The position numbers and the translations under genes are program-made. A model generated the notes under the pieces. It saw only the letters and a list, made by a program, of their open reading frames with translations, made no database searches and was not told the origin of the DNA. From Nocardioides bruguierae (GTDB lineage: Bacteria > Actinomycetota > Actinomycetes > Propionibacteriales > Nocardioidaceae): 64,000 bases of DNA. The stretch covers positions 1 through 64,000 of the forward strand of contig NZ_JAMOIL010000008.1 in the NCBI RefSeq assembly GCF_023656415.1, in the 5' to 3' direction. This document shows, piece by piece, positions 9,411 to 59,856 of this stretch; the first letter of the stretch is position 1; every line of letters starts with the position of its first letter.

Positions 9411-10346
9411 GTGATCGACACTCGCGACCCAGGGCTGCGCCGCCTGCTCACCATCCAGCAACCCCGCGTGGTGGCCAGGCGCCAGCTCGCCGAGCTGGGG
9501 GCGAGCGAGGACGACGTGCGCCGGATGCTCCGCCGCGGGGAGCTGCACCGGTGGCACGCCGGCGTCTACCGGCTCGACACGGGGCCGCCTACCGCCGAGC
9601 AGCGGCTCTGGGCCGCCGTGCTGCTGTTCCCCCGAGCCGCCCTGCACCGGGAGTCCGCGCTGCCCGGTGCTGCCGGCCTCCCGGCCCACGTCCTCGTGCC
9701 GCACCGGACCAGCACCCGGCGGCAGGTCCCGGGGGTGTCCGTGACGCGGTCACGACAGTTCGACGCCCGGGTCCAGCCGCGGACCTCGCCGCCCCGGGTG
9801 AGCCTCGAGGACGCCGCCGTCGAGGCCGCCGACCTCGCCGTGGACCTGGGTCACCGGCTCACGCTCCTCGCCGACCTCCTGCACACCCGCCGGACGACGG
9901 CGCAGCGTGTGCTGGCCGAGGTCGGTGCCGCACCGACCCTGCGCCACCGCGCCGAGATCGCCGCGCTGCTGACCGACATCGAGGCCGGCACGTCCTCGGT
10001 GCTGGAGCGGGAGTTCCTCCACCGCGTCCAACGAGCGCACGGGCTGCCCGTCGGTGACCGTCAGCGTCGGGCGGTCTCCCGGGTCGGGGTCACGTACCGC
10101 GACGTCGAGCTCACCAGGTGGGGCGTGGTCGTCGAGCTCGACGGGCGAGCCTTCCACGACGACCCCCGAGCCCGCGCACGAGACCTCCAGCGCGACCTCG
10201 CCTCGCTCGAGCAGGGGCTGGTCACCGTCCGTCTGGGTTGGTCCCAGGTCGTCCGGGACCCGTGCACCACCGCCGAGGCCCTGGCCGGCGTGCTGCGGGC
10301 GCGCGGGTGGACCGGCAGGACCGCCCGCTGCCCGCGATGCCCGTGA
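9411..10346 (+). CDS. AbiEi-like / DUF559-type protein
   Basis: This 311-aa protein opens with a helix-turn-helix-like segment (RQLAELGASEDDVRRMLRRG, then ELHRWHAGVYRL) as in AbiEi-type antitoxin or regulator proteins. It closes with a DUF559/Vsr-like nuclease fold signature (VVVELDGRAFHDDPRARARD ... LVTVRLGWSQV). Such two-part proteins are common singletons in actinobacteria. The GTG start follows an AGGGG tract. No toxin partner is adjacent. It is bracketed by the two copies of the 45-nt repeat, as a small cassette would be. The function is unproven. Confidence 0.7.
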   Translation: MIDTRDPGLRRLLTIQQPRVVARRQLAELGASEDDVRRMLRRGELHRWHAGVYRLDTGPPTAEQRLWAAVLLFPRAALHRESALPGAAGLPAHVLVPHRTSTRRQVPGVSVTRSRQFDARVQPRTSPPRVSLEDAAVEAADLAVDLGHRLTLLADLLHTRRTTAQRVLAEVGAAPTLRHRAEIAALLTDIEAGTSSVLEREFLHRVQRAHGLPVGDRQRRAVSRVGVTYRDVELTRWGVVVELDGRAFHDDPRARARDLQRDLASLEQGLVTVRLGWSQVVRDPCTTAEALAGVLRARGWTGRTARCPRCP

Positions 10347-10347
10347 C

Positions 10348-10392
10348 GGGTGCGATCACTGGCACCAGACGCCAGTGATCGCACCCACCAAG
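10348..10392. repeat. 45-nt palindromic repeat, copy 2
   Basis: This is the second copy of the unit at 9301-9345, here nearly perfectly palindromic (GGGTGCGATCACTGGC / GCCAGTGATCGCACCC). It lies between the convergent ends of the AbiEi-like gene and guaB3, where it could also terminate both. The non-palindromic tail ACCAAG is conserved in both copies. Confidence 0.8.
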
Positions 10393-10394
10393 TC

Positions 10395-11504
10395 TCAGAC
10401 GTCGAGGACGACCCCGACGCGCTGGAACTCCTTGGGGTCGGTGTAGCCGGTGGTGGCCATGGACCGCTTGAGGGCGCCGATGAGGTTCATCGTGCCGTCG
10501 GCGACGTGGCTGGGGCCGAAGAGGATCTCCTCCATCGTGCCGACCGTCTCGAACTGCACGCGGGTGCCGCGGGGCAGCTCGGGGTGGTGGGCCTCGGTGC
10601 CCCAGTGGAAGCCGTGGCCGGGCGCGTCGGTGGCGCGGGCGAACGGCGAGCCGACCATGACGGCGTCCGCGCCGCAGGCGATGGCCTTGGAGATGTCGCC
10701 CGAGCGACCGATGGAGCCGTCCGCGATCACGTGCACGTAGCGGCCGCCGGACTCGTCCAGGTAGTCGCGGCGGGCGGCGGCCACGTCGGCGACGGCCGAG
10801 GCCATCGGCACGGCGATGCCGAGCACGGTCTTGGTGGTGTGGGCGGCGCCGCCGCCGAAGCCCACGAGGACGCCGGCGGCGCCGGTGCGCATCAGGTGCA
10901 GCGCGGCCTGGTGGGTCGCGCAGCCGCCGACGATGACCGGCACGTCGAGCTCGTAGATGAACTCCTTGAGGTTCAGCGGCTCGGCCTGGCTGGAGACGTG
11001 CTCGGCGGAGACGGTGGTGCCGCGGATGACGAACATGTCGACGCCGGCGTCCACGACCGTCTTGGCGAACTCCTTGGTGCGCTGGGGCGAGAGCGAGCCC
11101 GCGACGGTGACCCCGGCGGCACGCATCTCGCGCAGCCGCTCGGTGATGAGCTCGGCCTTCACCGGCTCGTCGTAGATCTCCTGCATGCGGCGGGTGGCCT
11201 CACGGCCCTCCAGCCCGGCGACCTCGGCCAGCAGGGAGGTCGGGTCCTCGTAGCGCGTCCACAGGCCCTCGAGGTTGAGGACGCCGAGGCCGCCGAACTT
11301 GCCCATCGCGATCGCGGTGGCCGGGGACATGACGGAGTCCATCGGTGCGGCGATCACGGGGATGTCGAAGCGGTACGCGTCGATCTGCCAGTGCGTCGAG
11401 ACCTCCTCGGGGTCACGCGTGCGCCGCGAGGGCACGATGGCGACGTCGTCGAAGGAGTAGGCGCGACGGGCGCGCTTGGCCTGCCCGATCTGGATCTCGC
11501 TCAC
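10395..11504 (-). CDS. guaB3: GuaB3-family IMP dehydrogenase paralogue
   Basis: This 369-aa TIM-barrel protein of the actinobacterial GuaB3 group lacks the CBS insert of true IMPDH. Visible landmarks are YSFDDVAIVPSRRTRDPEEV, IPVIAAPMDSVMSPATA, the phosphate-binding VIADGSIGRSGDISKAIACG and an ERLREMRAAGVTVAGSLSPQ helix region. Its enzymatic role is not settled. GTG 11504 follows TAGTCT by 6 nt (leaderless pattern). It is encoded near guaB on the same strand. Confidence 0.93.
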   Translation of the reverse strand: MSEIQIGQAKRARRAYSFDDVAIVPSRRTRDPEEVSTHWQIDAYRFDIPVIAAPMDSVMSPATAIAMGKFGGLGVLNLEGLWTRYEDPTSLLAEVAGLEGREATRRMQEIYDEPVKAELITERLREMRAAGVTVAGSLSPQRTKEFAKTVVDAGVDMFVIRGTTVSAEHVSSQAEPLNLKEFIYELDVPVIVGGCATHQAALHLMRTGAAGVLVGFGGGAAHTTKTVLGIAVPMASAVADVAAARRDYLDESGGRYVHVIADGSIGRSGDISKAIACGADAVMVGSPFARATDAPGHGFHWGTEAHHPELPRGTRVQFETVGTMEEILFGPSHVADGTMNLIGALKRSMATTGYTDPKEFQRVGVVLDV

Positions 11505-49112: not shown

Positions 49113-49244
49113 ATGGACCTCCCCGTCATGCCGCCCGTGCAGCCGATGCTGGCGAAGGCCGTCTCCGGCGTGCCCGACCCCGCGAAGCACGGCGGCCTGC
49201 TGTTCGAGCCCAAGTGGGACGAAATATGTTCTAGTTGTACGTGA
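49113..49244 (+). pseudogene. 5' stub of DNA ligase disrupted by the island
   Basis: The 43 codons begin MDLPVMPPVQPMLAK, run through LLFEPKWD and then enter island sequence (EICSSCT, stop). The intact ligase at 58750 has the matching but divergent start (VDLPVMPPVRPMLAK ... QLEPKWDGFR). TAGGGT lies 6 nt before the ATG, so the stub keeps its own leaderless promoter. Confidence 0.85.
49204..49221 (+). repeat. Left junction repeat of the island
   Basis: TCGAGCCCAAGTGGGACG recurs at 58841-58858 with one change (C to A). It encodes the (F/L)EPKWD segment just before the ligase active lysine region. It probably marks the left end of the insertion. Confidence 0.7.
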
Positions 49245-49502
49245 CCGTCCTATGCTCACTCTATGCGCGCACCGTCGAGGCCGGCCAGCACGCCGACGCT
49301 CGCCGATTGCGCCAGAGGTAGTCGAACGTGTGATTACGCTCGAACGGCCGAGCCGGGACGCGACGTACACTCGCGCCGTGTGGACAAGCCTCTCGAAGAC
49401 GCGCATCGCGCAAACCACGAGCGGGCGCTCCCCGGGACATCTCCGTGAGCGTGGGCGGCGCCGAAGGCGAGCGCGACTTCCAGACGGGGCAAGACAAACA
49501 GC

Positions 49503-50732
49503 GTGAATAGTGCCAGCGATCTTGTGGACGCGCTTCTGGATCTCCTGCCGGTGGATGACTACTCTATTGCGACTCGGACCGGAGGTCGCGATGCCGTCGC
49601 AGTGAGCGCCCAGCACGAAGTGAGCGATACTCTTGAGATCGGCTCGACGCTCAAGCCGCTCACCGCTGTTCTCGCGCTTCGTGCGCTCAGCAGCAACGGC
49701 TTGAGCGTGGACACCCCGGTATGCACGGTCTTGGGGGATTCCGATGTGAAACTCCGCTCCTATCTCGGCTCGATAACCTTCAGGGACGTCTTGTCGCATC
49801 GTTCGGGGCTGAATGCTGATGCGTTCGTCGACATGGGCACCGACGGGTCAGAACTCCAGCGCTACGTCAACTACGTCGCGCACAACGTCCCCATCCTCGC
49901 GTCGCCAGGCGAGCTGTTCTCCTACAGCACGTTGGCGTACAACGTCTTGGGCCGCGCGATCGAGGTCCTGACCGGCCGGCGGTTCACTACACTGCTGCGG
50001 GACATGGGCTTCGCGGTGGGTTTGCGCGAGTCTCCACTGCCACTTTCAGCCCTACCTTCGGGGGCTCACGCCTTGTGCACCCCCGCGCATTTCCTCCGCA
50101 CCATGGGGACGATCCTCGATGATCCCGCGCGCATCCACCCGGAGTTGGTCGACCCGATGATCCGCCTCCAGCAGCCGAACCCGACCGGCGCCGCCGCCTG
50201 GGCCCTCGGCGCTGCAATCTATCCCTCGGGCTCTCTTGTGGTCGGTCATGATGGAGCAACGCTCGCGCGGTTCTCGGTGTTTAGGTACGACGTCCGCCGC
50301 CGAACCGGTGTGTTCGGTTCCTTCGCGATTGATGCTCCGCGGCAGCGCATCAAGGAGGCCATCGGCCAGGTCCTCGACGTAGCGTCTGGCGCCAGCATTC
50401 CGGACGGACCCTCCACGGAGCTCGGCCGCTTACCCCTCGTTGGGACCTACGAGAACTGGCAATACAGAAGGACTCTTTGGTGGGATGACACACAGGGCAC
50501 TCTGTTCTGTGAGAGCCAGCCACTTCGCGATCTTGCGGTGCTCGCCGGACGCCCGTCCCCATTCGCGAGTCCCGCGCGCCTGGTTCGCGACGATCTGCTC
50601 GTGACTAGGAACCCGGTGGGTGAGGACATGCCGCTCAACGTGGTCGTGCTTGGCGACGGCAGGAAAGGCCTGCATGACGGCAGATTCATGCCCCGGGTCG
50701 ATAACACCATCAGAGGGTCAGCGGCTGACTGA
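49503..50732 (+). CDS. Serine hydrolase with beta-lactamase/PBP fold
   Basis: This 409-aa protein has the SxxK nucleophile motif in EIGSTLKPLTAVLALRALSS (about 49-52), a YxN-like motif region FSYSTLAYNVLGRAIEVLTG, and a distal HDGA (VVGHDGATLARF) in place of KTG. This is the class C beta-lactamase/D-aminopeptidase fold, often used as esterase or peptidase. No signal peptide is seen. It is convergent with the TylF gene (23-bp overlap), the only plus-strand gene of the island. It could trim or hydrolyse the product; that is inference. Confidence 0.75.
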   Translation: MNSASDLVDALLDLLPVDDYSIATRTGGRDAVAVSAQHEVSDTLEIGSTLKPLTAVLALRALSSNGLSVDTPVCTVLGDSDVKLRSYLGSITFRDVLSHRSGLNADAFVDMGTDGSELQRYVNYVAHNVPILASPGELFSYSTLAYNVLGRAIEVLTGRRFTTLLRDMGFAVGLRESPLPLSALPSGAHALCTPAHFLRTMGTILDDPARIHPELVDPMIRLQQPNPTGAAAWALGAAIYPSGSLVVGHDGATLARFSVFRYDVRRRTGVFGSFAIDAPRQRIKEAIGQVLDVASGASIPDGPSTELGRLPLVGTYENWQYRRTLWWDDTQGTLFCESQPLRDLAVLAGRPSPFASPARLVRDDLLVTRNPVGEDMPLNVVVLGDGRKGLHDGRFMPRVDNTIRGSAAD

Positions 50733-51642
50733 CCTCCGCCAGCGGAACGTCGATGGCGGACCAGTACTCACGAAGCGCATACCAGTACCCGTAGATGTCA
50801 TGCTCATCCTCTTCGAGGCTTTGCAGGAGGACCCGCGCTGACGACCCCTGCCCGCATCGCTCGACCTCCCGAGTCAAGCAGTCGAGGAAGTGGCTGTCCT
50901 GTTTGAGTTGCGTCAGACGGTAGAAGTTCCCGTCATGGGCCCGGTGGTCGTCTCGTCCGGGGTGCTCACCCTTCCGGACCATGACCGAATAGGGAAACAG
51001 AACCTCGTAGACCACGGGCTCGTCGACTTCGTTAAAGAAGTCACGGCACGCACGCGCCGGCCCCTGAGCCGGATGGAAGAAGTCATCGACCACCAGGACC
51101 CCTGATTCATGGAGTCGCGGCCACGCCAGCCGGAGCGACGCCGCCACTGAGCCGTAGAGGTCTGAGTCAAGATGGGCAAGGGCCAGGGTGTGTGGGAGGT
51201 CGTCGTCGGTGAGGTCTTCGAAGAACGCTTGCAGCGGGATCACAGTCTGGCTCAGCCCGCGATCGGAGAGCTCGCGCGTGAAACGCTCGAGCAACAATTG
51301 CGACCCTTCGGCCGCCGCATAGAAGCCCGCTTCGAAGTACGGATTGTCACGTGTGGGATCCGGCTCAGGCAGACCAGCGAAACTGTCACACGCGTAGACG
51401 CGCCGATCATGTTCCTGAGCGATCTGGCCGAGCAAGATGGACATGCCCCCCTTCGCCACTCCGAACTCGGCTATCTGGCCCTCCTGCCCAGGCAGCAGGT
51501 CGGTCAGGACGTTCAGCTGCCTCCAGGTAGCCCAGGGGAAAGGAGGTTGGAGGCACAAGGGCGCGGCTGACGCCATCCGACGACCCAAGTCCCCAGGAAA
51601 CTGGCGATGGAACATGAAGGAAATCGGGAAGTCGTAGATCAT
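50710..51642 (-). CDS. TylF/MycF-like methyltransferase
   Basis: This 310-aa class I SAM methyltransferase has the SAM loop QIAEFGVAKGGMSILLGQIA, the metal-binding LAHLDSDLYGSVAASLRLAW and VLVVDDFFHPAQGPARACRD, as in macrocin-type O-methyltransferases. ATG 51642 overlaps the MFS stop (ATGA), so a longer upstream reading frame is not needed. Last gene of the operon; it may O-methylate the modified peptide. Confidence 0.82.
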   Translation of the reverse strand: MIYDFPISFMFHRQFPGDLGRRMASAAPLCLQPPFPWATWRQLNVLTDLLPGQEGQIAEFGVAKGGMSILLGQIAQEHDRRVYACDSFAGLPEPDPTRDNPYFEAGFYAAAEGSQLLLERFTRELSDRGLSQTVIPLQAFFEDLTDDDLPHTLALAHLDSDLYGSVAASLRLAWPRLHESGVLVVDDFFHPAQGPARACRDFFNEVDEPVVYEVLFPYSVMVRKGEHPGRDDHRAHDGNFYRLTQLKQDSHFLDCLTREVERCGQGSSARVLLQSLEEDEHDIYGYWYALREYWSAIDVPLAEVSQPLTL

Positions 51643-52871
51643 GTTCGGCTCCGATCGCGATAGGCCTCTGGCGCGGCGTCTGGCAGGCGCACCATCGCGG
51701 CCGACCGAACCGTCAGCAGCGGAGCGGCGCAGCCAATCGCGGCGGTCCACCACAGGACGGCTACGTCGCCCATTGCTTCAGCCAGCCAGCCTGCACCCAC
51801 GTAGGCAATCGGAGTGAGGCTGAGCGCGCCGAACTGGTTCATCGCACTGGCCAGGGCCAGCTGGCGCTCAGGCAACTGCGAGTGCAGCGCGACCGCCCAA
51901 TACACGCCGCTCGCGGAGATGCCAGCGAACGAGAGCGTAGCGCCCAAGCACACGAATACCAGGCTGGTCGTTGTTGCCAAGGCGATGGGCTCTGCTGCAA
52001 ACGCTGGCAGAAGCACCATCGCCCTGACCACTGGCCGTGTGGCCCCGAAGCTCGCGGCCCCAACTCCTCCTGCGACCGCCCCGATGCCTGCGGCCACGCA
52101 GATCGCGCTCCACGCCTCGGGCCCGCCGAGACGATTCGTAGCAATGACCGGCGCGAGGACTAGGGATGCGGCGAAAGCAAAGTTGAACGCGCCGAAGGCC
52201 GCTGTACCTCTCAGGAGCCAGGTCTGCTCCTTCATGAGGGCCCGGCCTGCGGCCATCTGTTTGCGCAACGAGATCTCGTGGTATCCGGAAAAGTGTTCAT
52301 GGAGCCCGGCGAGCGTCGCGATGGACAAGGCGAACGTAAGCGCATCGATGAAGAACGCAAACGCGATGTTACCGAAGATGAGGATGATGCCGGCGAGCGC
52401 CGGTCCTGCGACATAGCCGACGTTCACGCTAATCGAGACCAGTCCGTTGGCTGACCCAAGGTCCTGGCCACCGGTGGTGTCGGGTATGAGCGCGGAATAG
52501 GCGGGCCTGAAGATCGCCACTCCGACCGAGAACGCGAAGCAGAGCGCGGCAAGCAGACCGAGATTTTCGATATCGGCGAGGAGCAGCGCAGCGATCGCAA
52601 CTTGAGAAACAAGTCTGATCGCGTCGGCAGCGATCATAACGGCGCGACGCGGGTATCGGTCGGCGATGAGTCCGCCAAGGGGCATGAGGACAACACGAGG
52701 GACCGTGCTGCAGGCCAGCACGAAACCCACCCCCCGAGCTGTCGCGCCCATGTCGATGGCAGCCAGGGCGACGACGACGGGTACAAGACCATCGCCGAGA
52801 GCAGACAGGGATTGGCCGATCCAGAGCCGTCGGAACTGCGAATGCCGCAAGGCCGAAAACCTGCTGCTCAT
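51639..52871 (-). CDS. MFS transporter, probable product exporter
   Basis: This 410-aa protein has about 12 membrane helices and the loop GGLIADRYPRRAVMIAADAI between helices 2 and 3, as in the MFS_3/macrolide-efflux group. ATG 52871 overlaps the N-methyltransferase stop. The cluster position suggests export of the finished peptide or self-protection. Confidence 0.82.
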   Translation of the reverse strand: MSSRFSALRHSQFRRLWIGQSLSALGDGLVPVVVALAAIDMGATARGVGFVLACSTVPRVVLMPLGGLIADRYPRRAVMIAADAIRLVSQVAIAALLLADIENLGLLAALCFAFSVGVAIFRPAYSALIPDTTGGQDLGSANGLVSISVNVGYVAGPALAGIILIFGNIAFAFFIDALTFALSIATLAGLHEHFSGYHEISLRKQMAAGRALMKEQTWLLRGTAAFGAFNFAFAASLVLAPVIATNRLGGPEAWSAICVAAGIGAVAGGVGAASFGATRPVVRAMVLLPAFAAEPIALATTTSLVFVCLGATLSFAGISASGVYWAVALHSQLPERQLALASAMNQFGALSLTPIAYVGAGWLAEAMGDVAVLWWTAAIGCAAPLLTVRSAAMVRLPDAAPEAYRDRSRT

Positions 52872-53731
52872 CGGCCTGCCTCTGACTGCGGAGCACCGGC
52901 CGCCTCGTGGAGCTCGAACAGGTGCATCGTTGGTGGTCCTTCGAGGGCGCGGTCAAGCCCAAGTCGATCCATCAGGACCATGTCCGGCTCGAGCAGCCCG
53001 ACCCCGCCAATGTAGAGAGTCATGAACTCCCCAATGTCCAACAGCTCGTCCAACCGGACCTCGTTGGTGACAGGGGCGTCTCCAAAGAACGAACGGTCAT
53101 ACCCAACTACAGGGTGATCATGGGGATAACGCTCGAGCAGCGCGTCTTGGAGGAGGCGCAGGTTCTCCGGATGGTTTGACCGATCGTCATAGTCGACACG
53201 TCCAAGCACTTCCACTTGGCACAGGATCAAGGGGACGCGCGAATCAATGTCCGGCCTCATGACCAGGAACGTTGTCGCGTCGTGAATCTGCAGGCCCGTC
53301 GTTCCCGGGTCAACGCCCAGGTCCGCGAATAGGCAGTCCAATGAGCTGATGTTTGGAAGAACGTGCGCAGGAATCCGTGCCCTGCGCGCCTCGGCGAGGA
53401 CCATCTGGGTGGGGAAGACGAAGACGGAGGGGTGACCGTAGAGCGCTACACAAACACGAGCGCCGGCACGTGCCTCGTCGATGATGCGATCGACCATTCT
53501 TCGGTAAGCAAGCAGCCTAGACGTCGCCGGTTCATAGTCGGCCACGAGCGACATCGGGCGACGGGTGTGCCTCCGAAGCCACTCCTCCGTCGCTGGATCG
53601 GCAACCCCGTAGAGGACCACATCGGCTTGCACCAGAGCATCGCGGACCTCAGCATTGAGATGACCAATCGCGCTCATCCCGGTCCCTACCAGAGTGATCT
53701 CTCCCCCTCGAAGCCCCGTGTGCTCGCTCAT
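52868..53731 (-). CDS. Borosin-like peptide-backbone alpha-N-methyltransferase
   Basis: This 287-aa tetrapyrrole-methylase-fold protein begins ITLVGTGMSAIGHLNAEVRD and has VLYGVADPATEEWL, Tyr66, SRLLAY (Arg72, Tyr76) and ALYGHPSVF (Tyr98). These are the residue types and positions I recall for the fungal OphMA active site; position 63 (Tyr in OphMA) is Val. It ends after a short linker like the one that leads to OphMA's clasp, with no fused core peptide, so it is a stand-alone (split) enzyme. ATG 53731 overlaps the SDR stop (ATGA). Corrin-ring methylase is the alternative, but no cobalamin genes are near. Confidence 0.82.
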   Translation of the reverse strand: MSEHTGLRGGEITLVGTGMSAIGHLNAEVRDALVQADVVLYGVADPATEEWLRRHTRRPMSLVADYEPATSRLLAYRRMVDRIIDEARAGARVCVALYGHPSVFVFPTQMVLAEARRARIPAHVLPNISSLDCLFADLGVDPGTTGLQIHDATTFLVMRPDIDSRVPLILCQVEVLGRVDYDDRSNHPENLRLLQDALLERYPHDHPVVGYDRSFFGDAPVTNEVRLDELLDIGEFMTLYIGGVGLLEPDMVLMDRLGLDRALEGPPTMHLFELHEAAGAPQSEAGR

Positions 53732-54527
53732 GCTCGCGCCCGGCACTCTTCAATCGTCGCTTCCGGCGATCGAAACGTCATCCCCAACTGCAGCGCGCGC
53801 TCGTTCGCAATGGAACAGAGCTCTCGTTCATACACAAGGGGCGGGAGAAGATCGCCGGTTGGGGGCAATCCCACGAACCGCACCCGTTCGCGTGTGGAGG
53901 TCGGCCCTGCTGCGGAGGCCAGAGCTTCCGCCGTCACGCTGGGACCCGCGCGTTGACTACGGGGGTGGGTCTGTCCGTGTTCGTGGCGCAAAACAACAAC
54001 AGCGTCGCCAGGTCACGGACATCAACGAACTCGATTCGTCGAGTCGGCTCGCAGAAAGCTACCCCGTTGCTGTCTTCCCGCCCGAGCGCGGCCCAATACT
54101 GGATTCGATCGTGCGGGTCACGCGGTCCCACTACGTCGACAGGACGGACGACCACGGCGTCCTGTTCGATGATGAGCTCTTCACAGCGAAGCTTCTTGTC
54201 GACGTAGTCAGTTCGCGTCCCGAGGGGAGCCACCTCGCAACGTTCGTCCACAAGGGCGGAGGGTTCTTCGAGGGCGCGATAGACCGCCGCACTCGACACG
54301 AGCACGTAGCGACTATCCGGGAATGCGGTCTTGAGTGCTTTCACCCGGTCTGGGTCCAACCCCGCGCAGTCAATGACCGCGCACGCGCTGCCGCGATCAA
54401 ACCGACCGACGCTGACGTTTGTGGTCCTTCCAACGGCGAACGCGTCTAGCCCGGCGCGCACGAGCGTCTCTGCGACGTGTCCTCCGATGAAGCCCGTAGC
54501 TCCGGCTACCACGACTTTTTGCGTCAC
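53728..54527 (-). CDS. NAD-dependent epimerase/SDR, apparently frameshifted
   Basis: GTG 54527 starts VTQKVVVAGATGFIGGHVAE (Rossmann GxxGxxG); SSAAVYRAL and YVDKK follow, with VVRPVDVVGPRDPHD typical of extended SDRs. The frame stops at 53934 after NARVPA. Adding one G to the GGG run at 53945-53947 continues it as NARGPSVTAEALAS down to the stop at 53728, giving 266 aa and an ATGA junction with the next gene. The continuation in frame and the perfect coupling argue that this is one gene. Confidence 0.75.
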
Positions 54528-55033
54528 TAGATTAACGGCTTGCGATAGGGGATAACCCGTCCAAGGTTGTCGTCGACCTGTGCGTAGCGTCGACGACTTA
54601 GGAATTCGCCACCCAGGATATTCCGACACTGGACCAGCATCGTCAACGTTCTGGCGCCTCGTTGGCGAACCACTTCCTCGACATGCGCGAGAAGCGCGGT
54701 GCCCACCCCCTTACCGCGTTGGCCAACGTCGATGAGCAGGAGGCCGCAAGTCGCATTCTCAGGGGTGGGGTACGAGGTGATCACGTCAGCCGCCCCGGCC
54801 AGCTCACCGTCCACCCATGCTCCAACGAGGTACTTGTTGTCGAAGGACAGGCCCTCCGGCAACGCCATGTAGGTGCTCTGCGCGTCAGCGGCTCCGACCG
54901 TCTCGAAGAGATCCTCCAGGCGCGGCGTTCTGTCGTAGATCGCCTGAAGGAGTGGACCGTCCTCCGACTCGAGCGGGAGGAAGGTCGGCTCCTGTGAGCA
55001 GAGCGTCTCCTGCGTATTCAACGGGACCGCCAC
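54527..55033 (-). CDS. GNAT-family N-acetyltransferase
   Basis: This 168-aa protein has the acetyl-CoA loop VGQRGKGVGTALLAHVEEVV and a short C-terminal FLSRRRYAQVDD. The stop (TAG) overlaps the GTG of the SDR gene by one base. It begins 3 nt after the PhyH stop. It could acetylate the peptide or give self-resistance; undetermined. Confidence 0.75.
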   Translation of the reverse strand: MAVPLNTQETLCSQEPTFLPLESEDGPLLQAIYDRTPRLEDLFETVGAADAQSTYMALPEGLSFDNKYLVGAWVDGELAGAADVITSYPTPENATCGLLLIDVGQRGKGVGTALLAHVEEVVRQRGARTLTMLVQCRNILGGEFLSRRRYAQVDDNLGRVIPYRKPLI

Positions 55034-55036
55034 CCT

Positions 55037-55737
55037 TCAATCGGCCAACACCACGCGGACCACGGCCGCAGCACGATCCGCCCCGGAACGATTCGAGTGG
55101 GAACGATGCCAAGTATGGCAGTGGTGCACCGACGCTTCTCCAGCGGATAGAGGTGCGGCGTCGACAGCGTCCTCGTCCCGAACCTCAGGAAGTGGTGACA
55201 GGGAGTCTTCGAGCGCAAGCAGGCGAGGATCCGGAACGACACCGTTGCGGAACTCTCCGGGCAGGAAGCGACCTTGCCGGTGGCTACTTGGGACAAATTG
55301 AAGCGCTCCTCGAGTGCTGTCGACGTCGCTCAGCGCCACCCAGAACGTCAGGTAGTGAGCTTGCAGGTCTGGGTAGACGGGCCAGTCCTGGTGCCAACTG
55401 AGGGCGGCCCCAACGACAGCGGGCTTGACGAAAAGCTCGTCGCTCAGAAGCCGAGTCGACCCGCCGAGCAGCGGCACCGCGTCGCTCACCAGTCTCTCGA
55501 TAAGGTCAGGACGCAGGGCCTGGCACGCCCCGAAGATCGTGTGAAAGGTCGCGGACCCATCTTCGGTCCGGCCGTCGTCTTGTCGTGTTACCCCGTCCGG
55601 CAGAGAGCCGGCGGACACGAGCTCCCGCGCCTCGTCTCCAAATGCTTCTGCCTCGCTACGGCTAAGGACGCGCCCGAATGTCGCGAATCCCTCTGAGTGA
55701 GTCCTTCAGCGGGGCCGGCTTTCAGGGGTGCCGTCAT
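55037..55737 (-). CDS. PhyH-type Fe(II)/2-oxoglutarate dioxygenase, apparently frameshifted
   Basis: The C-terminal 193 residues contain the metal motif WHQDWPVY (HxD) and the distal His with Arg/Ser in HTWHRSHSNRS, as in phytanoyl-CoA hydroxylase relatives. Upstream in the same frame is a family-like segment GFATFGRVLSRSEAEAFGDE with no start codon. Adding one G to the GGG run at 55689-55691 joins it to an ATG at 55737 (MTAPLKAGPAEGLTQR) that overlaps the radical SAM stop. The corrected protein is 233 aa. It would hydroxylate or otherwise oxidise a peptide residue. Confidence 0.75.
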
Positions 55738-56753
55738 GGCGTTGTCAGGGGCAGGTACTTCGGGAGCTCCGAGACGTCGACACCTTCGTTCATGTTCACG
55801 CAGAAGGGGTCGGAGGCGTCCCATGAGCCCTTGAACATGAACGCTGCAGATCTGCATCCGCCCGGGCTCCCGACCTGGGTGCCGGCGCAGTCGTCGCACG
55901 CGCCTTCTACCTCCGCGGTCCGGATCTCGGTGTAGTGCGCGTCCTGCCACGTGTCCAGCAGTGTCTTGTCGCGTACATTGCCGAAGTCCACGAGGTCCCT
56001 CAGGTAAGGACATCCAATGGATCGACCGGTAGAGGTTACTCCGGCATTTTCGAAGCAGCAGTTCGAGTCGTAGGGGTGGAAGCCCTCCATGAACCGGACA
56101 CCGTCAGGAACGACGACAGAGTCAACAGCGGTCATGATCTCTGGCAGGGTGGGCGCGAGGTGACCCCAGTTCTCCAGCGCCCTGCCGATGGGGTAGAACC
56201 TCAGAAACGCCACCTCCACCGCGCCTAGTTCTGCTCCTAGATCGAGGTAGTCCTGCAGGTGCGGAAGGACCTTGCGGTTCAGGATGCACGCTAGAGCCAC
56301 AGGTACGTCGCATGCCCTGAGGTTCTTCACGCCTTCGATCGTGTGCTCATAGGTGCCCGCAACACCGGCTAGCTCGTCATTCAACTCTGCTTGGGGCGCG
56401 AACAGGTCAACGATAACTCGCCCAATGCCCAACTGCGCCAGTTCCTCGGCGCGCTTCGGGGTAATCAGATGCGCATGAGTTCGCAGCCAAACCCAGAATT
56501 TCGATGTCGCGAAGCGCAGGAAGTCGTCGAGATCGCCACGGCATAGCGGTTCCCCGCCCTCGATGTTGATGTTGATGACGCCATCAGTACTCATTTGGGT
56601 GAGAACTTGCTTCCACTCGTCGAGCGTCAATTCGTCGGTGGCTGCTTCCTTGGTGCAATTCGTGTAACACTGCTGACAATTGAGGTCGCAGACGTTCGTG
56701 ACCTGAATGTACGACTTTACTGGTGTATTCAAGAAGAGTCTGGGGTGAGCCAC
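55734..56753 (-). CDS. Radical SAM/SPASM peptide maturase
   Basis: This 339-aa protein has the 4Fe-4S motif at Cys22, Cys26, Cys29 (VCDLNCQQCY) and GGEP at 66-69. The C-terminal 90 residues hold a SPASM-like set of eight or so cysteines (SNCCFENAG, GCPYLRD, GACDDCAGTQVGSPGGC, DPFC). SPASM enzymes such as PqqE and AlbA make carbon-carbon or thioether links in precursor peptides. The GTG start has GGAGG 8 nt upstream. It lies next to a PqqD-like gene and the candidate precursor. Confidence 0.92.
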   Translation of the reverse strand: MAHPRLFLNTPVKSYIQVTNVCDLNCQQCYTNCTKEAATDELTLDEWKQVLTQMSTDGVININIEGGEPLCRGDLDDFLRFATSKFWVWLRTHAHLITPKRAEELAQLGIGRVIVDLFAPQAELNDELAGVAGTYEHTIEGVKNLRACDVPVALACILNRKVLPHLQDYLDLGAELGAVEVAFLRFYPIGRALENWGHLAPTLPEIMTAVDSVVVPDGVRFMEGFHPYDSNCCFENAGVTSTGRSIGCPYLRDLVDFGNVRDKTLLDTWQDAHYTEIRTAEVEGACDDCAGTQVGSPGGCRSAAFMFKGSWDASDPFCVNMNEGVDVSELPKYLPLTTP

Positions 56754-56787
56754 GATCGCGCCTCCATGACCTTTTCAATGCGGTTGG

Positions 56788-56823
56788 CTGGTGAGGGACC
56801 TGGCAGCCCCGGCCCCTCACCAG
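56788..56823 (-). promoter_or_regulatory. Hairpin between candidate precursor and radical SAM gene
   Basis: Perfect 10-bp arms CTGGTGAGGG / CCCTCACCAG with a 16-nt loop lie about 40 nt past the precursor stop and 35 nt before the radical SAM start. There is no U-tract. This is the place where RiPP operons often have an attenuator or processing site that keeps precursor mRNA in excess. Confidence 0.6.
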
Positions 56824-56860
56824 GGTTGTGCCTCTCCAAGCGTGAGAGAAGCATCAACTT

Positions 56861-57040
56861 CTACGGTTCCTCGATGGCTGAGCGCTGCTCAGCCATCTTC
56901 GCGACCAGCGCAGGACTGAATGTGTACTGCGCCGGTGAACGGAAGTGCGGCTGGCACTCATGTACCAGTCCCGGCTCCAAGGAGCCGGTCGCCTCCGTCA
57001 TGCGCTTCAGCTGTCCCAGCAACTCCTCGTTTTTAGCCAT
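56861..57040 (-). CDS. Candidate 59-aa RiPP precursor peptide
   Basis: The peptide opens with a helical, charged leader-like half (MAKNEELLGQLKRMTEATGS) and continues LEPGLVHECQPHFRSPAQYT to EQRSAIEEP; one Cys, four Pro and several aromatic residues lie in the C-terminal half. ATG 57040 follows GGGGGTGAG by about 5 nt and is 6 nt after the PqqD-like stop. It is too short for standard gene finding. No database match is known to me; leader/core boundary is unknown. Confidence 0.6.
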   Translation of the reverse strand: MAKNEELLGQLKRMTEATGSLEPGLVHECQPHFRSPAQYTFSPALVAKMAEQRSAIEEP

Positions 57041-57046
57041 CTCATC

Positions 57047-57391
57047 TCACCCCCTTACTTCATCTACGGTTGATTCGATCGATGTCATTTGCAGAATGCC
57101 GTTCTCCTCAAGGTTGTACAGGGTGTCCTCAAGGACCTGATCCGCTTCGTCGGCGGATGCGACCGCGCTGGCGAATGACCGAAACTCTTCTCTGATCACG
57201 TCGCGGGTCTGGCCGATGCTGATTTCAAGCACAGCCCGCGCCGTTGGGTTCAGGTAGTACAACTTGGGTGACGGCGGCGCATAGACCAAAGCGCCGGCCC
57301 ACTCGGGCATTTCTCGAGTTCTGCTTTTCGGATTGAGTTCATACGTTCTCGGCATCGCTTCGGGTTGAGCCACGTCGAGTCCTCCCGTCAT
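57047..57391 (-). CDS. PqqD-like RiPP recognition element protein
   Basis: This 114-aa protein has the PqqD winged-helix pattern: PKLYYLNPTARAVLEISIGQ, then EADQVLEDTLYNLEENGILQ. Such proteins bind leader peptides and present them to radical SAM or other enzymes. An alternative GTG start at 57373, 7 nt after GGGAGGA, would give 108 aa. It lies just before the candidate precursor. Confidence 0.82.
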   Translation of the reverse strand: MTGGLDVAQPEAMPRTYELNPKSRTREMPEWAGALVYAPPSPKLYYLNPTARAVLEISIGQTRDVIREEFRSFASAVASADEADQVLEDTLYNLEENGILQMTSIESTVDEVRG

Positions 57392-57405
57392 CGTGGTCTG
57401 ATTGG

Positions 57406-58527
57406 TTATCGAACTGTCAGAAGTTCTTGCGACAGGCGACTGATGTCAGGAAGCGCGTCGTTCGACTCAAGCCAGGCCTCGCTGACTCGGTCGAGCGTCC
57501 AGTCGCGGAAGAGACGCCCCTCTTGGGTGTACTCGTCAGCCAAGGGCCCACGTGCAGCGTCGCTGAGCCAAACGGACCTCTCGAGGCAGCGCCGCGCTGC
57601 GGCGGTGGCCTCCTCTGCGCTCGCGGTATTGGCGGCGGCGTTCGCCGCGAAGAGGCGAGCCAAATGAACGTACACGTGGAGCGCGATGAGCACTCGGTCG
57701 GCCGCCCACTCACGAAGTATCTGTTCTCTGTGTGCGTTCCACGGCACCGTGACCTGAGCGGACGTGGTAGGGCTGTATCCGTCTCGGAAGACTTGGTAGG
57801 TGGCAACAATGTCGAAGTACTTCTGATGCGTGCTCTCGTGGAGGACCGCCTCCATGCATGTTGCTTGACCCCCGGCAGCGGCATGGTCCGCCAGGAATAT
57901 GGCGCCGGGAAGAGCGTAATGAGAACTGCTCTCCATCATCGGCTTATCACGCCCTTCGGTTGGCGCGCGCACAATTCTGCATGCGACGTCGACGTGCGGC
58001 ATTATCGAATGGCAGAGGTCTGGGTCGATCGCAGCGATTCCTCGAATTGCGTTCCAGATCGCATCGTGGACGCCAGCATCGGGATCGTCCGCCAACTCGA
58101 TTCGTTGTCCGGCGGCGGCCTCGAGGTCCGGCTTCATCTCAGCCGTCCAGATCCCGCGAAGGGCGTCTCGTGACGATGGCCTGATCGCCTCGAAATACGT
58201 CAGTCCGTGGGGCAGGTCCTCGGGCCGGCCGTGGGTGACCGTCTCCAGGGACGCGCGCAGCAGGTGGGTCGCAGAGGGGTCCGGGGGCGCTTCCGTGGAC
58301 TGGGTCAGATCGCGCAACCACTCGTTCGCGAGAGCGCGGAAGGCAGTCGACCTAAGAACGGCAGCTTGACGATCTGCCGGTGCATCGAAAAAGGCAGAGC
58401 GAAGCGGTCGGACTTCACGGCGAGATTCGCCAACGATTTCGAGAACGAACTCGTACGTCGCCCGCAGGTTCGCCTGTACCTTCGAAGTGTCTCCGTATTT
58501 CGCATTCTGAGTGAGTTCGTCCATCAC
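57406..58527 (-). CDS. HExxH-motif peptide-modifying protein (aKG-HExxH hydroxylase type)
   Basis: This 373-aa protein has HESTH at residues 230-234 (CMEAVLHESTHQKYFDI), then a helical region with LREWAADRVLIALHVYVHLA (possible third ligand His284). This is the layout of the RiPP-associated HExxH family, some of which are 2-oxoglutarate-dependent peptide beta-hydroxylases. It is first in the operon; ATG 58524 is an alternative start. A peptidase role is possible but less likely in this context. Confidence 0.78.
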   Translation of the reverse strand: MMDELTQNAKYGDTSKVQANLRATYEFVLEIVGESRREVRPLRSAFFDAPADRQAAVLRSTAFRALANEWLRDLTQSTEAPPDPSATHLLRASLETVTHGRPEDLPHGLTYFEAIRPSSRDALRGIWTAEMKPDLEAAAGQRIELADDPDAGVHDAIWNAIRGIAAIDPDLCHSIMPHVDVACRIVRAPTEGRDKPMMESSSHYALPGAIFLADHAAAGGQATCMEAVLHESTHQKYFDIVATYQVFRDGYSPTTSAQVTVPWNAHREQILREWAADRVLIALHVYVHLARLFAANAAANTASAEEATAAARRCLERSVWLSDAARGPLADEYTQEGRLFRDWTLDRVSEAWLESNDALPDISRLSQELLTVR

Positions 58528-58749
58528 TCATCCCGCCCCGATCGCCCAAGACCGTGGGTCTACCTGACTCTCATCATTGCCACAGGCTCACTCAGAGTCA
58601 ATGGGTGACGGTCGAGGGACAGACATCCACCCGCGTGGGCTCCTTGAACCGGGGCGTCGGCCACCAGCCCGACGAGAAGCGTGTGTTGGTGCCGGATCCG
58701 GCTCGCCGTACTCCTGGCAACCATCGCTGCCGCCTCTAGGCTGAGCGAC

Positions 58750-59856
58750 GTGGACCTTCCGGTGATGCCGCCCGTCCGTCCGATGTTGGCGAAGACCACG
58801 ACGCTGGAGAAGGCGCTCGCGATGCTTCCCGACGTCCAACTCGAGCCAAAGTGGGACGGGTTCCGCTGCCTCGTCTTCCGCGACGGGGACGAGGTGGAGC
58901 TGGCCAGCCGCAACACCAAGCCGCTCACCCGCTACTTCCCCGAGGTCGTCGAGGCCGTGCTGGCCGAGCTGCCCGAGCGTTGCGTGCTCGACGCGGAGCT
59001 GTTCGTGGCACTGCCCCAGCCCGACGGGCGCCGCAAGCTCGAGTTCGAGGTGCTCCAGGAGCGCATCCACCCCGCCGCGTCCCGGATCACGAAGCTGTCG
59101 CAGGAGACGCCCGCCGAGCTGGTCGCCTTCGACCTGCTCGCGCTCGGCGACGAGGACCTGACCGGGCTCCCCTTCCAGGAGCGACGCGGGCGGCTCGAGC
59201 AGGCCCTGGGCCACCTGGACGCGTCGACGCGCTGCCACCTCACCCGGGTGACCACGGACCCCGAGGAAGCAGGCGACTGGTTCCGCCGGTTCGAGGGCGC
59301 GGGCCTGGACGGCGTGGTCGCCAAGCCGTTGGGCTCGGTCTACGAGCAGAACAAGCGGACGATGCTGAAGATCAAGCACGAGCGCACCGCGGACGTGGTG
59401 CTGGCCGGCTACCGCGAGCACAAGACCTCCACCCGCGAGAAGCCGCTGATCGGCTCGCTGCTGCTCGGCCTCTTCGACAGCGAGCACGGCCTCCAGCACG
59501 TCGGGGTGAGCGCCAGCTTCACGGCTGCCCGCCGCGCCGAGCTGTTCGAGGAGCTCCAGCCGCTGGTCTGCCCCATCGAGGAGCACCCGTGGGGCGCCTG
59601 GCAGGAGTGGGCCATCGCGAACCCCGACCGCGTGCCGGGCACGCAGAGTCGCTGGTCGCAGGGCAAGGACCTCTCCTTCACCCCGGTGCGCCCCGAGCGG
59701 GTGCTGGAGGTCAAGTACGACAACATGGAGGGACGCCGGTTCCGGCACACCGCGCACTTCAAGCGCTGGCGCCCCGACCGCGACCCCGCGTCCTGCGGCT
59801 ACGACCAGCTCGAGCAGGTGGTCGGCTACGACCTGGGCGCCATCCTCGGCGGCTGA
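58750..59856 (+). CDS. ligC: ATP-dependent DNA ligase (LigC type)
   Basis: This 368-aa ligase has the adenylation motif EPKWDGFRCLVFRDG (Lys in KWDG), RNTKPLTRYFPE, AFDLLALGD, GVVAKPLGSVYEQ and KIKHERTADVVLAGYREHKT. A C-terminal OB domain (about 245-368) is present; no polymerase or nuclease domain is fused. The first 36 codons came with the island; GTG 58750 follows TAGGCT by 7 nt. It pairs with the polymerase-domain gene at 61078, suggesting an end-joining or gap repair role. Confidence 0.92.
   Translation: MDLPVMPPVRPMLAKTTTLEKALAMLPDVQLEPKWDGFRCLVFRDGDEVELASRNTKPLTRYFPEVVEAVLAELPERCVLDAELFVALPQPDGRRKLEFEVLQERIHPAASRITKLSQETPAELVAFDLLALGDEDLTGLPFQERRGRLEQALGHLDASTRCHLTRVTTDPEEAGDWFRRFEGAGLDGVVAKPLGSVYEQNKRTMLKIKHERTADVVLAGYREHKTSTREKPLIGSLLLGLFDSEHGLQHVGVSASFTAARRAELFEELQPLVCPIEEHPWGAWQEWAIANPDRVPGTQSRWSQGKDLSFTPVRPERVLEVKYDNMEGRRFRHTAHFKRWRPDRDPASCGYDQLEQVVGYDLGAILGG
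58841..58858 (+). repeat. Right junction repeat of the island
   Basis: TCGAGCCAAAGTGGGACG is the partner of 49204-49221 (17 of 18 identical), inside codons LEPKWD(G) of the intact ligase. Base composition changes back to host-like right after it. Confidence 0.7.

Follow-up and report, generated by a model that had tools for sequence, protein, structure and literature searches.

Several described peptide pathways share parts with the locus examined here. Split borosins (types IV to X) possess a methyltransferase of the OphMA and SonM family whose catalytic residues are also those of the enzyme described below, and a separate precursor gene; the available portion of PMC11395268 presents 'class 4' split borosins as having methyltransferase and core apart and no identified borosin binding domain (BBD). 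Cyclophane pathways of the ChlB/ChlH type use a radical SAM enzyme and an HExxH hydroxylase on one peptide; in the available sections of PMC12636437, ChlH hydroxylates His and Asp, while PflC and PosC hydroxylate consecutive Gln residues and also cleave the backbone. Biphenomycin clusters (bip/bpm/pbs) combine an Arg-containing conserved core with the HExxH hydroxylase BipH, a protein containing a recognition element for ribosomally synthesized and post-translationally modified peptides (RiPPs) and, as in the sister branch described below, a B12-radical SAM enzyme (excerpts of PMC12257519 and PMC12707348). The pyrroloquinoline quinone (PQQ; PqqA/D/E) and mycofactocin (MftA/B/C) pathways likewise have a PqqD-like protein, a SPASM enzyme and a peptide with a conserved middle. 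The first three kinds (split borosins, cyclophane pathways with SPASM and HExxH enzymes, and biphenomycin clusters) each share one or two parts with a gene module in an operon of Nocardioides bruguierae (contig NZ_JAMOIL010000008.1), located in the first 64,000 nucleotides of the contig (forward strand), hereafter the window.

This operon comprises ten genes on the minus strand, running from 58527 to 50710, and quite probably encodes a RiPP pathway: judging from the encoded proteins, the PxxR[ST]xxQ[YV] stretch of its short peptide would be modified by the PqqD-like, radical SAM, HExxH and methyltransferase set before export. Because a related peptide adjoins related enzymes in seven other bacterial clusters, the product likely represents an undescribed RiPP natural-product family. 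On balance we lean towards an undescribed actinobacterial RiPP class, in which PqqD/SPASM/HExxH maturation would act on a core, PxxR[ST]x[AS]Q[YV], that hardly varies, and lineages would swap two SAM chemistries that are unrelated to each other, borosin-type backbone N-methylation and a B12-radical SAM reaction. The loci split into two branches, one with a borosin-type methyltransferase (3 loci) and one with a B12-binding-like radical SAM gene (5 loci). The first-pass annotation of the window had proposed a RiPP island, an interpretation supported by both the conserved module and the conserved precursor family.

The module differs from each of its closest counterparts. Compared with split borosins, the precursor shows no visible BBD and adjoins genes for PqqD-like, radical SAM/SPASM and HExxH proteins. 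Unlike the ChlB/ChlH type, as far as the available text describes it, the enzymes are separate proteins, encoded together with a PqqD-like protein as well as a methyltransferase of the borosin type, and the core has no universally kept aromatic residue. The core of biphenomycin is FHAFRF, and its descriptions, in the portions available, name no SPASM enzyme or N-methyltransferase; Pfam and NCBIfam profile scans, with which all gene families were assigned, named no MNIO or arginase family for the operon proteins, so that the biphenomycin-like combination of an MNIO with an FHAFRF or YHxYxY core was not found. Relative to PQQ and mycofactocin, the module has an additional HExxH protein, a methyltransferase or B12-binding-like radical SAM protein, and tailoring and export genes, and its occurrence is patchy. 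To our knowledge, no earlier pathway joins backbone N-methylation with SPASM and HExxH chemistry, as this one would. No open-licence paper was found that mentions 'borosin' together with 'HExxH', and no published description of the module was found in the available open-licence literature, a scope that excludes the ChlB/ChlH paper and two split-borosin surveys cited in PMC11285071.

The precursor is a 59-residue peptide (56861..57040, minus strand), whose homologues comprise 15 further database proteins and the peptides adjacent to PqqD and radical SAM genes at other loci. It had been picked out by the first-pass annotation, and profile searches and alignments placed it in a conserved precursor family. 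As sole query against 5.8 billion proteins it retrieved only itself, while a profile of three peptides (from the window, Lentzea terrae and Streptacidiphilus neutrinimicus) retrieved 16 proteins from the same set, those of the window and Streptacidiphilus included. A model of 16 peptides picked the small open reading frame (ORF) by the PqqD gene at four further loci (L093 to L096; E 2e-09 to 1e-06), the next-best match in the six loci searched having an E value of 0.25. PxxR[ST] was present in every aligned peptide, with P and R invariant (18 aligned of 23 at hand; P0050, P0051, P0060, P0062 and P0064 were omitted as copies or near copies). Lentzea-like members displayed a nearly invariant RGLExxVVHxVEPSLRTGSQVAFNPSLVDEIV with variable ends, and the peptide middle was nearly invariant in 16 of 17 aligned peptides, the tails varying. 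No aromatic residue of the PxxR[ST]xxQ[YV] core was common to all members. From its sequence, the core of the window peptide likely lies within QPHFRSPAQYTF.

Between the peptide genes of Lentzea and Streptacidiphilus, nonsynonymous (dN) and synonymous (dS) divergence reached 0.10 and 0.82 over 32 central codons, and the peptide is therefore under purifying selection; over 56 codons, the values were 0.25 and 1.25. dN was also below dS in all three pairs among L094, L095 and L096, with few changes. The ribosome site GGAGGTGA preceded the peptide genes of both Lentzea and Streptacidiphilus. Overall, a short precursor beside modifying enzymes and conserved with them, as expected of a RiPP, was found at 8 of 9 loci (by eye in L087). 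The only large gap of the operon (107 nucleotides) separates the peptide and radical SAM genes and contains a strong predicted hairpin (56788..56823, minus strand; 13-pair outer stem; z-score -4.1 against shuffles for the gap), likely an attenuator or mRNA end. A hairpin was predicted 3' of the peptide gene in all eight loci folded (z -1.5 to -4.1).

Related loci were recovered in two ways. A scan with the methyltransferase alignment across one genome per species (84,980 species) confirmed at least 571 stretches, and among the best 80 loci kept, two shared more with the window than the methyltransferase, or the methyltransferase and MFS gene. Searching with the radical SAM protein at E 1e-60 gave matches in 3 of 390 Lentzea-family and 5 of 394 Streptacidiphilus-family genomes, two of the eight being L. 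terrae (L007) and S. neutrinimicus (L002); among 396 genomes of the phylum and 294 of the family of the window, only its own genome matched. As the loci were found through methyltransferase or radical SAM similarity, co-occurrence counts are valid for these loci only. Conserved gene order in relatives had been set beforehand as the test of the RiPP reading, and contiguous modules were indeed present in both lineages. In L. terrae, genes for HExxH, PqqD, a 58-residue peptide, radical SAM protein and methyltransferase were contiguous, followed by MFS, an APH-family kinase and a cytochrome P450. The S. neutrinimicus locus displayed, from the contig end, a 57-residue peptide, radical SAM protein, methyltransferase, GNAT, ferredoxin and a P450-like gene (by eye); since HExxH and PqqD genes lie at the extreme end of another contig (L105), its module is probably complete.

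The second branch showed a different arrangement. L093 encoded HExxH, PhyH, radical SAM, PqqD, peptide, B12-binding-like radical SAM and TylF, its PhyH and TylF matching those of the window at E 3e-26 and 2e-73 (TylF 46% identical). L094, L095 and L096 encoded HExxH, radical SAM, PqqD, peptide, B12-binding-like radical SAM, MFS and GNAT, the B12-binding-like genes of L094 and L095 being identified by similarity to that of L096. HExxH, radical SAM, PqqD and peptide genes were thus contiguous in three Streptacidiphilus-family genomes other than that of S. neutrinimicus; in a fourth, PhyH stood between HExxH and the other three. L087 harbored radical SAM, PqqD, a 51-residue peptide (by eye) and B12-binding-like radical SAM genes, with GNAT on the opposite strand. 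Its radical SAM homologue (9858-10874, minus strand) retained the SPASM cysteines without CX3CX2C, and its sequence suggests that it is likely a pseudo-radical-SAM protein; no HExxH gene adjoined this module, the single match of the genome lying on another contig (E 6e-16). In L088, HExxH and radical SAM genes were followed by a short PqqD-like ORF, with the contig end about 140 nucleotides further on.

Across the nine loci, window included, the radical SAM and PqqD-like genes were found in 9, HExxH in 8 (counting the Streptacidiphilus gene, with PqqD on its separate contig), the peptide in 8, the methyltransferase in 3 and the B12-binding-like radical SAM gene in 5; the ninth locus, counted in neither branch, is cut short by a contig end. 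The methyltransferase and the B12-binding-like radical SAM gene never occurred together in the regions seen (0 of 9 loci): tblastn gave no match to the latter in the window, L002 or L007, and phmmer none to the former in the six other loci. In the three proteins scanned, the B12-binding domain fell below the Pfam cut-off (21.9 to 30.1 against 32.1; E 5e-07 to 2e-04). PhyH and TylF were found in 2 of 9 loci, both times together (window and L093), and SDR matched in the window only. GNAT matches occurred near the modules of L002, L087 and L094 to L096, and at 8 of the 9 loci the region read contained an MFS match; both families being common, this constitutes weak evidence. The enzyme set therefore varies between loci, and the two branches arrange their module genes differently. 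A separate radical SAM homologue, 37.5% identical to that of the window, was noted on a Microvirga ossetica plasmid (L097, 9992-10990) upstream of a gene set of the xanthine dehydrogenase family; an incomplete gene table lists no HExxH, PqqD or methyltransferase gene within 10 kb of it.

The methyltransferase (52868..53731, minus strand) matched TP_methylase above the Pfam cut-off and appears from its sequence to be a borosin-type peptide backbone N-methyltransferase. Its closest solved relatives were fungal dbOphMA/OphMA (about 125 bits), then bacterial SonM (106 bits), and the catalytic Tyr, Arg and Tyr of this family were present. In 27 aligned sequences, R77, Y81, Y103, S134 and Q177 (numbered from GTG 53746) were invariant and Y71 nearly so. 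The available part of PMC11395268 lists R79, Y83, Y105, S136, Q179, Y73 and Y70 of KchMA, chosen by comparison with OphMA, and reports that Y73F retained most activity. By our own mapping, six of these seven residues are kept in the window enzyme, the seventh (Y70) being Val. In a 94-row tree (short search, no bootstrap), built from one methyltransferase per locus for 80 loci and 13 of 48 database proteins (26 of which entered alignment A1), the window, Lentzea and Streptacidiphilus enzymes grouped with P0002 at an SH-aLRT of 90, below the 95 starred by the tool. The same three loci formed one clade in the radical SAM tree (support 100/99), so both enzymes appear to have travelled together. 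Among 197 genomes of the class of the window, only its own had a methyltransferase match. Borosin-like methyltransferase genes were also observed in contigs of Thermoplasmata archaeon metagenome-assembled genomes (MAGs; L015, L032, L033 and L034; 39-44% identical to that of the window), and as three ORFs in tandem in a Planctomycetota MAG (L009:1402-4781) and an Acidobacteria MAG (L016:1385-4956). Some homologues carried an extra domain resembling, by eye, a BBD, either N-terminal (P0038) or C-terminal (P0019, P0020 and P0032).

The HExxH, PqqD-like and radical SAM proteins were assigned with uneven strength. The first gene (57406..58527, minus strand; start GTG 58527 or ATG 58524) encodes an alpha-KG-HExxH-type peptide hydroxylase family protein, matching TIGR04267 with 40.6 bits (cut-off 40). 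Together with six homologues, 7 of 7 matched this family at E <= 0.1 (best 2.4e-14), and the H, E and H of HExxH as well as HVYVHL were invariant (alignment A7); no match was obtained against PDB sequences. The PqqD-like protein (57047..57391, minus strand) had no Pfam match, and its best PDB hit reached only E 0.91. Six of seven such proteins matched PF05402 at E <= 1 (best 5e-06), that of the window being the exception, and the profile had no match in its own genome; six of seven matched TIGR04353 at E <= 0.1. The window protein is 42% identical to its Lentzea counterpart, and on sequence grounds would likely serve as recognition element and bind the precursor. The radical SAM/SPASM maturase (55734..56753, minus strand) matched PF04055 and PF13186 and carries CX3CX2C.

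All genes named by the first-pass annotation were located, and family scans together with sequence reading confirmed the minus-strand operon. Its six coupled junctions also stood when read base by base, with four ATGA overlaps (radical SAM stop with ATG 55737, 69-codon ORF/methyltransferase, methyltransferase/MFS and MFS/TylF), one TAGTG (GNAT/SDR) and one GTGA (SDR/69-codon ORF). The 69-codon ORF (53728..53937, minus strand; no Pfam match), with its GTGA and ATGA overlaps, had been omitted between SDR and methyltransferase from an otherwise correct list of ten genes. Short gaps separated HExxH and PqqD (14 nucleotides), PqqD and peptide (6) and PhyH and GNAT (3). The remaining genes, on the same strand, encode a GNAT acetyltransferase (54527..55033; PF00583, 39.7 bits), a putative MFS exporter (51639..52871; PF05977/PF07690, about 88 bits) and a TylF-family O-methyltransferase (50710..51642; PF05711, 65 bits), all above Pfam cut-offs, as were PhyH and SDR. 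The island had been drawn at 49222..58840, a left margin about 1.5 kb too far that took in a beta-lactamase-family (serine) hydrolase on the opposite strand (49503-50732); this gene had no match in the relatives' loci searched and was rejected as a cluster member. Upstream of the operon, a promoter-like site (58573..58601, minus strand; TTGACT-17-AATGAT, 9/12) showed a weak consensus only, and an ATP-dependent DNA ligase gene (58681-59856, plus strand) diverges from the operon start. Enzymes of a polyketide or cofactor pathway had been set beforehand as a second refuting condition; the scans assigned no operon protein to a polyketide synthase or nonribosomal peptide synthetase family, and the TP_methylase resembles the borosin enzymes. 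The recurrence of the same genes together in other genomes makes their grouping more than chance.

Two tailoring genes showed broken frames. The PhyH-type 2-oxoglutarate dioxygenase (55037..55705, minus strand) was assigned to the right family (PF05721) in the first-pass annotation, which did not mention that the initial third of the domain lies ahead of any start codon: the open frame from 55705 covers profile positions 2-212 of 213, and that from GTG 55618, the first start, only 79-213. HxD and a later H are the iron ligands of PhyH enzymes, and both are kept in the shorter form; the protein is 36% identical to the PhyH of L093. A 49-codon ORF from ATG 55737 (55588..55737, minus strand), which overlaps the radical SAM stop, is likely the original PhyH start, now out of frame. 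The SDR/epimerase-family protein (53934..54527, minus strand; PF01370, 54 bits) lacks its C-terminal part in frame, stopping directly past the Epimerase domain, and had no match among PDB sequences. The 69-codon ORF is probably its out-of-frame end and, since it reads as such, was rejected as a borosin precursor. L094 shows a similar break, its B12-binding-like radical SAM gene being spread over two frames, which makes assembly error as likely as real loss.

Several observations weigh against a functional RiPP pathway of the proposed kind. PhyH and SDR look interrupted in the window assembly, each beside a coupled junction, and the window peptide is divergent, with 28-35% identity to 16 others aligned. 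The HExxH protein lies right at the TIGR04267 cut-off, and the PqqD-like protein (E 3.6e-05, 24.6 bits) below the TIGR04353 cut-off of 35. AlphaFold models from two-row alignments had a mean pLDDT of 40.9 for the HExxH protein and of 56.8 for the PqqD-like protein (best Foldseek E 1.2), both too poor for fold confirmation. Pfam assigns the peptide to no family, and visual comparison showed no likeness to the extra domains of P0019 and P0020; no BBD was seen in it by Pfam scan and eye (no domain profile was run), so recognition by the methyltransferase lacks an obvious basis, although 'class 4' of PMC11395268 can do without this domain. No dedicated leader peptidase was recognised, and the folding of the stretch 3' of the peptide gene in L007, L096 and L087 was equalled by 10 to 18 of 200 shuffles. 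Given the missing CX3CX2C and adjacent HExxH of L087 and the short PqqD-like ORF of L088, the module is not always complete, and an N-methylated, hydroxylated and crosslinked product is a prediction from the genes.

The interrupted genes and the divergent peptide could reflect a decaying RiPP cluster, with PhyH and SDR as pseudogenes and the strain making a simpler compound or none. This is possible, if unlikely: the remaining eight genes are open, motifs are retained in the peptide, methyltransferase, radical SAM and HExxH proteins, the similar break in L094 leaves assembly error as likely, and a 93% identical methyltransferase is present in another assembly. Alternatively, the nearly invariant peptide middle between variable tails could be cut out to give an unvarying, non-exported redox cofactor resembling PQQ or mycofactocin. 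This would agree with the PqqD-like protein, with PqqE among the PDB relatives and with the PqqE- and MftC-like scores of the radical SAM enzyme, which fall under the equivalog cut-offs (128.7 against 381 for PqqE; 101 against 265 for MftC) and do not assign it to either pathway. Such a cofactor is improbable given the patchy occurrence (1 of 294 genomes in the family of the window, 3 of 390 and 5 of 394 in two others), tailoring genes that differ by locus (methyltransferase, B12-binding-like radical SAM, P450, APH kinase, PhyH and TylF) and MFS matches in 8 of 9 loci, common as MFS genes are. The scans assigned no operon protein to a dehydrogenase of the PQQ or mycofactocin type, and the SDR belongs to the epimerase family. 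A highly conserved core is likewise found in biphenomycin precursors (available text of PMC12257519), and as this Arg-containing core belongs to an antibiotic, a fixed core does not imply a cofactor.

The methyltransferase, MFS and TylF genes might instead form a separate natural-product pathway abutting the PqqD/radical SAM/HExxH module. The methyltransferase was indeed not found in six of nine loci (one cut by a contig end), homologues lie away from any module in G751 and G1452, and G556 has a second copy. This arrangement is nevertheless highly doubtful, as the methyltransferase gene is directly 3' of the radical SAM gene in Lentzea and Streptacidiphilus, whose enzymes share the clade of the window enzyme (SH-aLRT 90), TylF accompanies the module in L093 and overlapping junctions run from GNAT to TylF. 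It is barely conceivable that the TP_methylase is a tetrapyrrole (cobalamin or siroheme) enzyme in an operon unrelated to peptides. PF00590 and a sub-threshold YabN match would fit, but the best PDB relatives are peptide N-methyltransferases with conserved catalytic residues, and the scans placed no further operon protein in a tetrapyrrole family; the OphMA and SonM relationship led us to reject this identity.

Under the preferred RiPP reading, the N-terminal half of the peptide would act as leader, held by the PqqD-like protein, and side-chain activation or crosslinking in or near PxxR[ST]xxQ[YV] would fall to the radical SAM enzyme. The HExxH protein would beta-hydroxylate a nearby residue, the conserved core Gln being the natural candidate in the window, and might also help release the product, as PflC and PosC are reported to do. 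Backbone nitrogens would be N-methylated by the borosin-type enzyme after the radical SAM and HExxH steps; in the Lentzea terrae precursor, the changes made by these three enzymes would map to VEPSLRTGSQVAF. PhyH, if functional, would add a hydroxyl and TylF would O-methylate; as neither was found without the other in the loci examined, the hydroxyl made by PhyH may be the target of TylF. GNAT would provide acylation for tailoring or self-protection, and the MFS protein would export the product. Placed behind the precursor gene, the hairpin would allow more copies of the peptide than of its enzymes to be made.

Routes to stable, cell-permeable peptides are in high demand, among them backbone N-methylation, radical chemistry and iron-dependent hydroxylation. 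If the proposed pathway is true, their combination on a peptide of less than 60 residues would represent a compact enzyme toolkit. The window peptide alone could not find its relatives, so this precursor family is easily overlooked in genome annotation, and the core motif offers a handle for finding further clusters. The presence of either a methyltransferase or a B12-binding-like radical SAM protein on one scaffold would constitute a natural experiment in pathway enzyme exchange.

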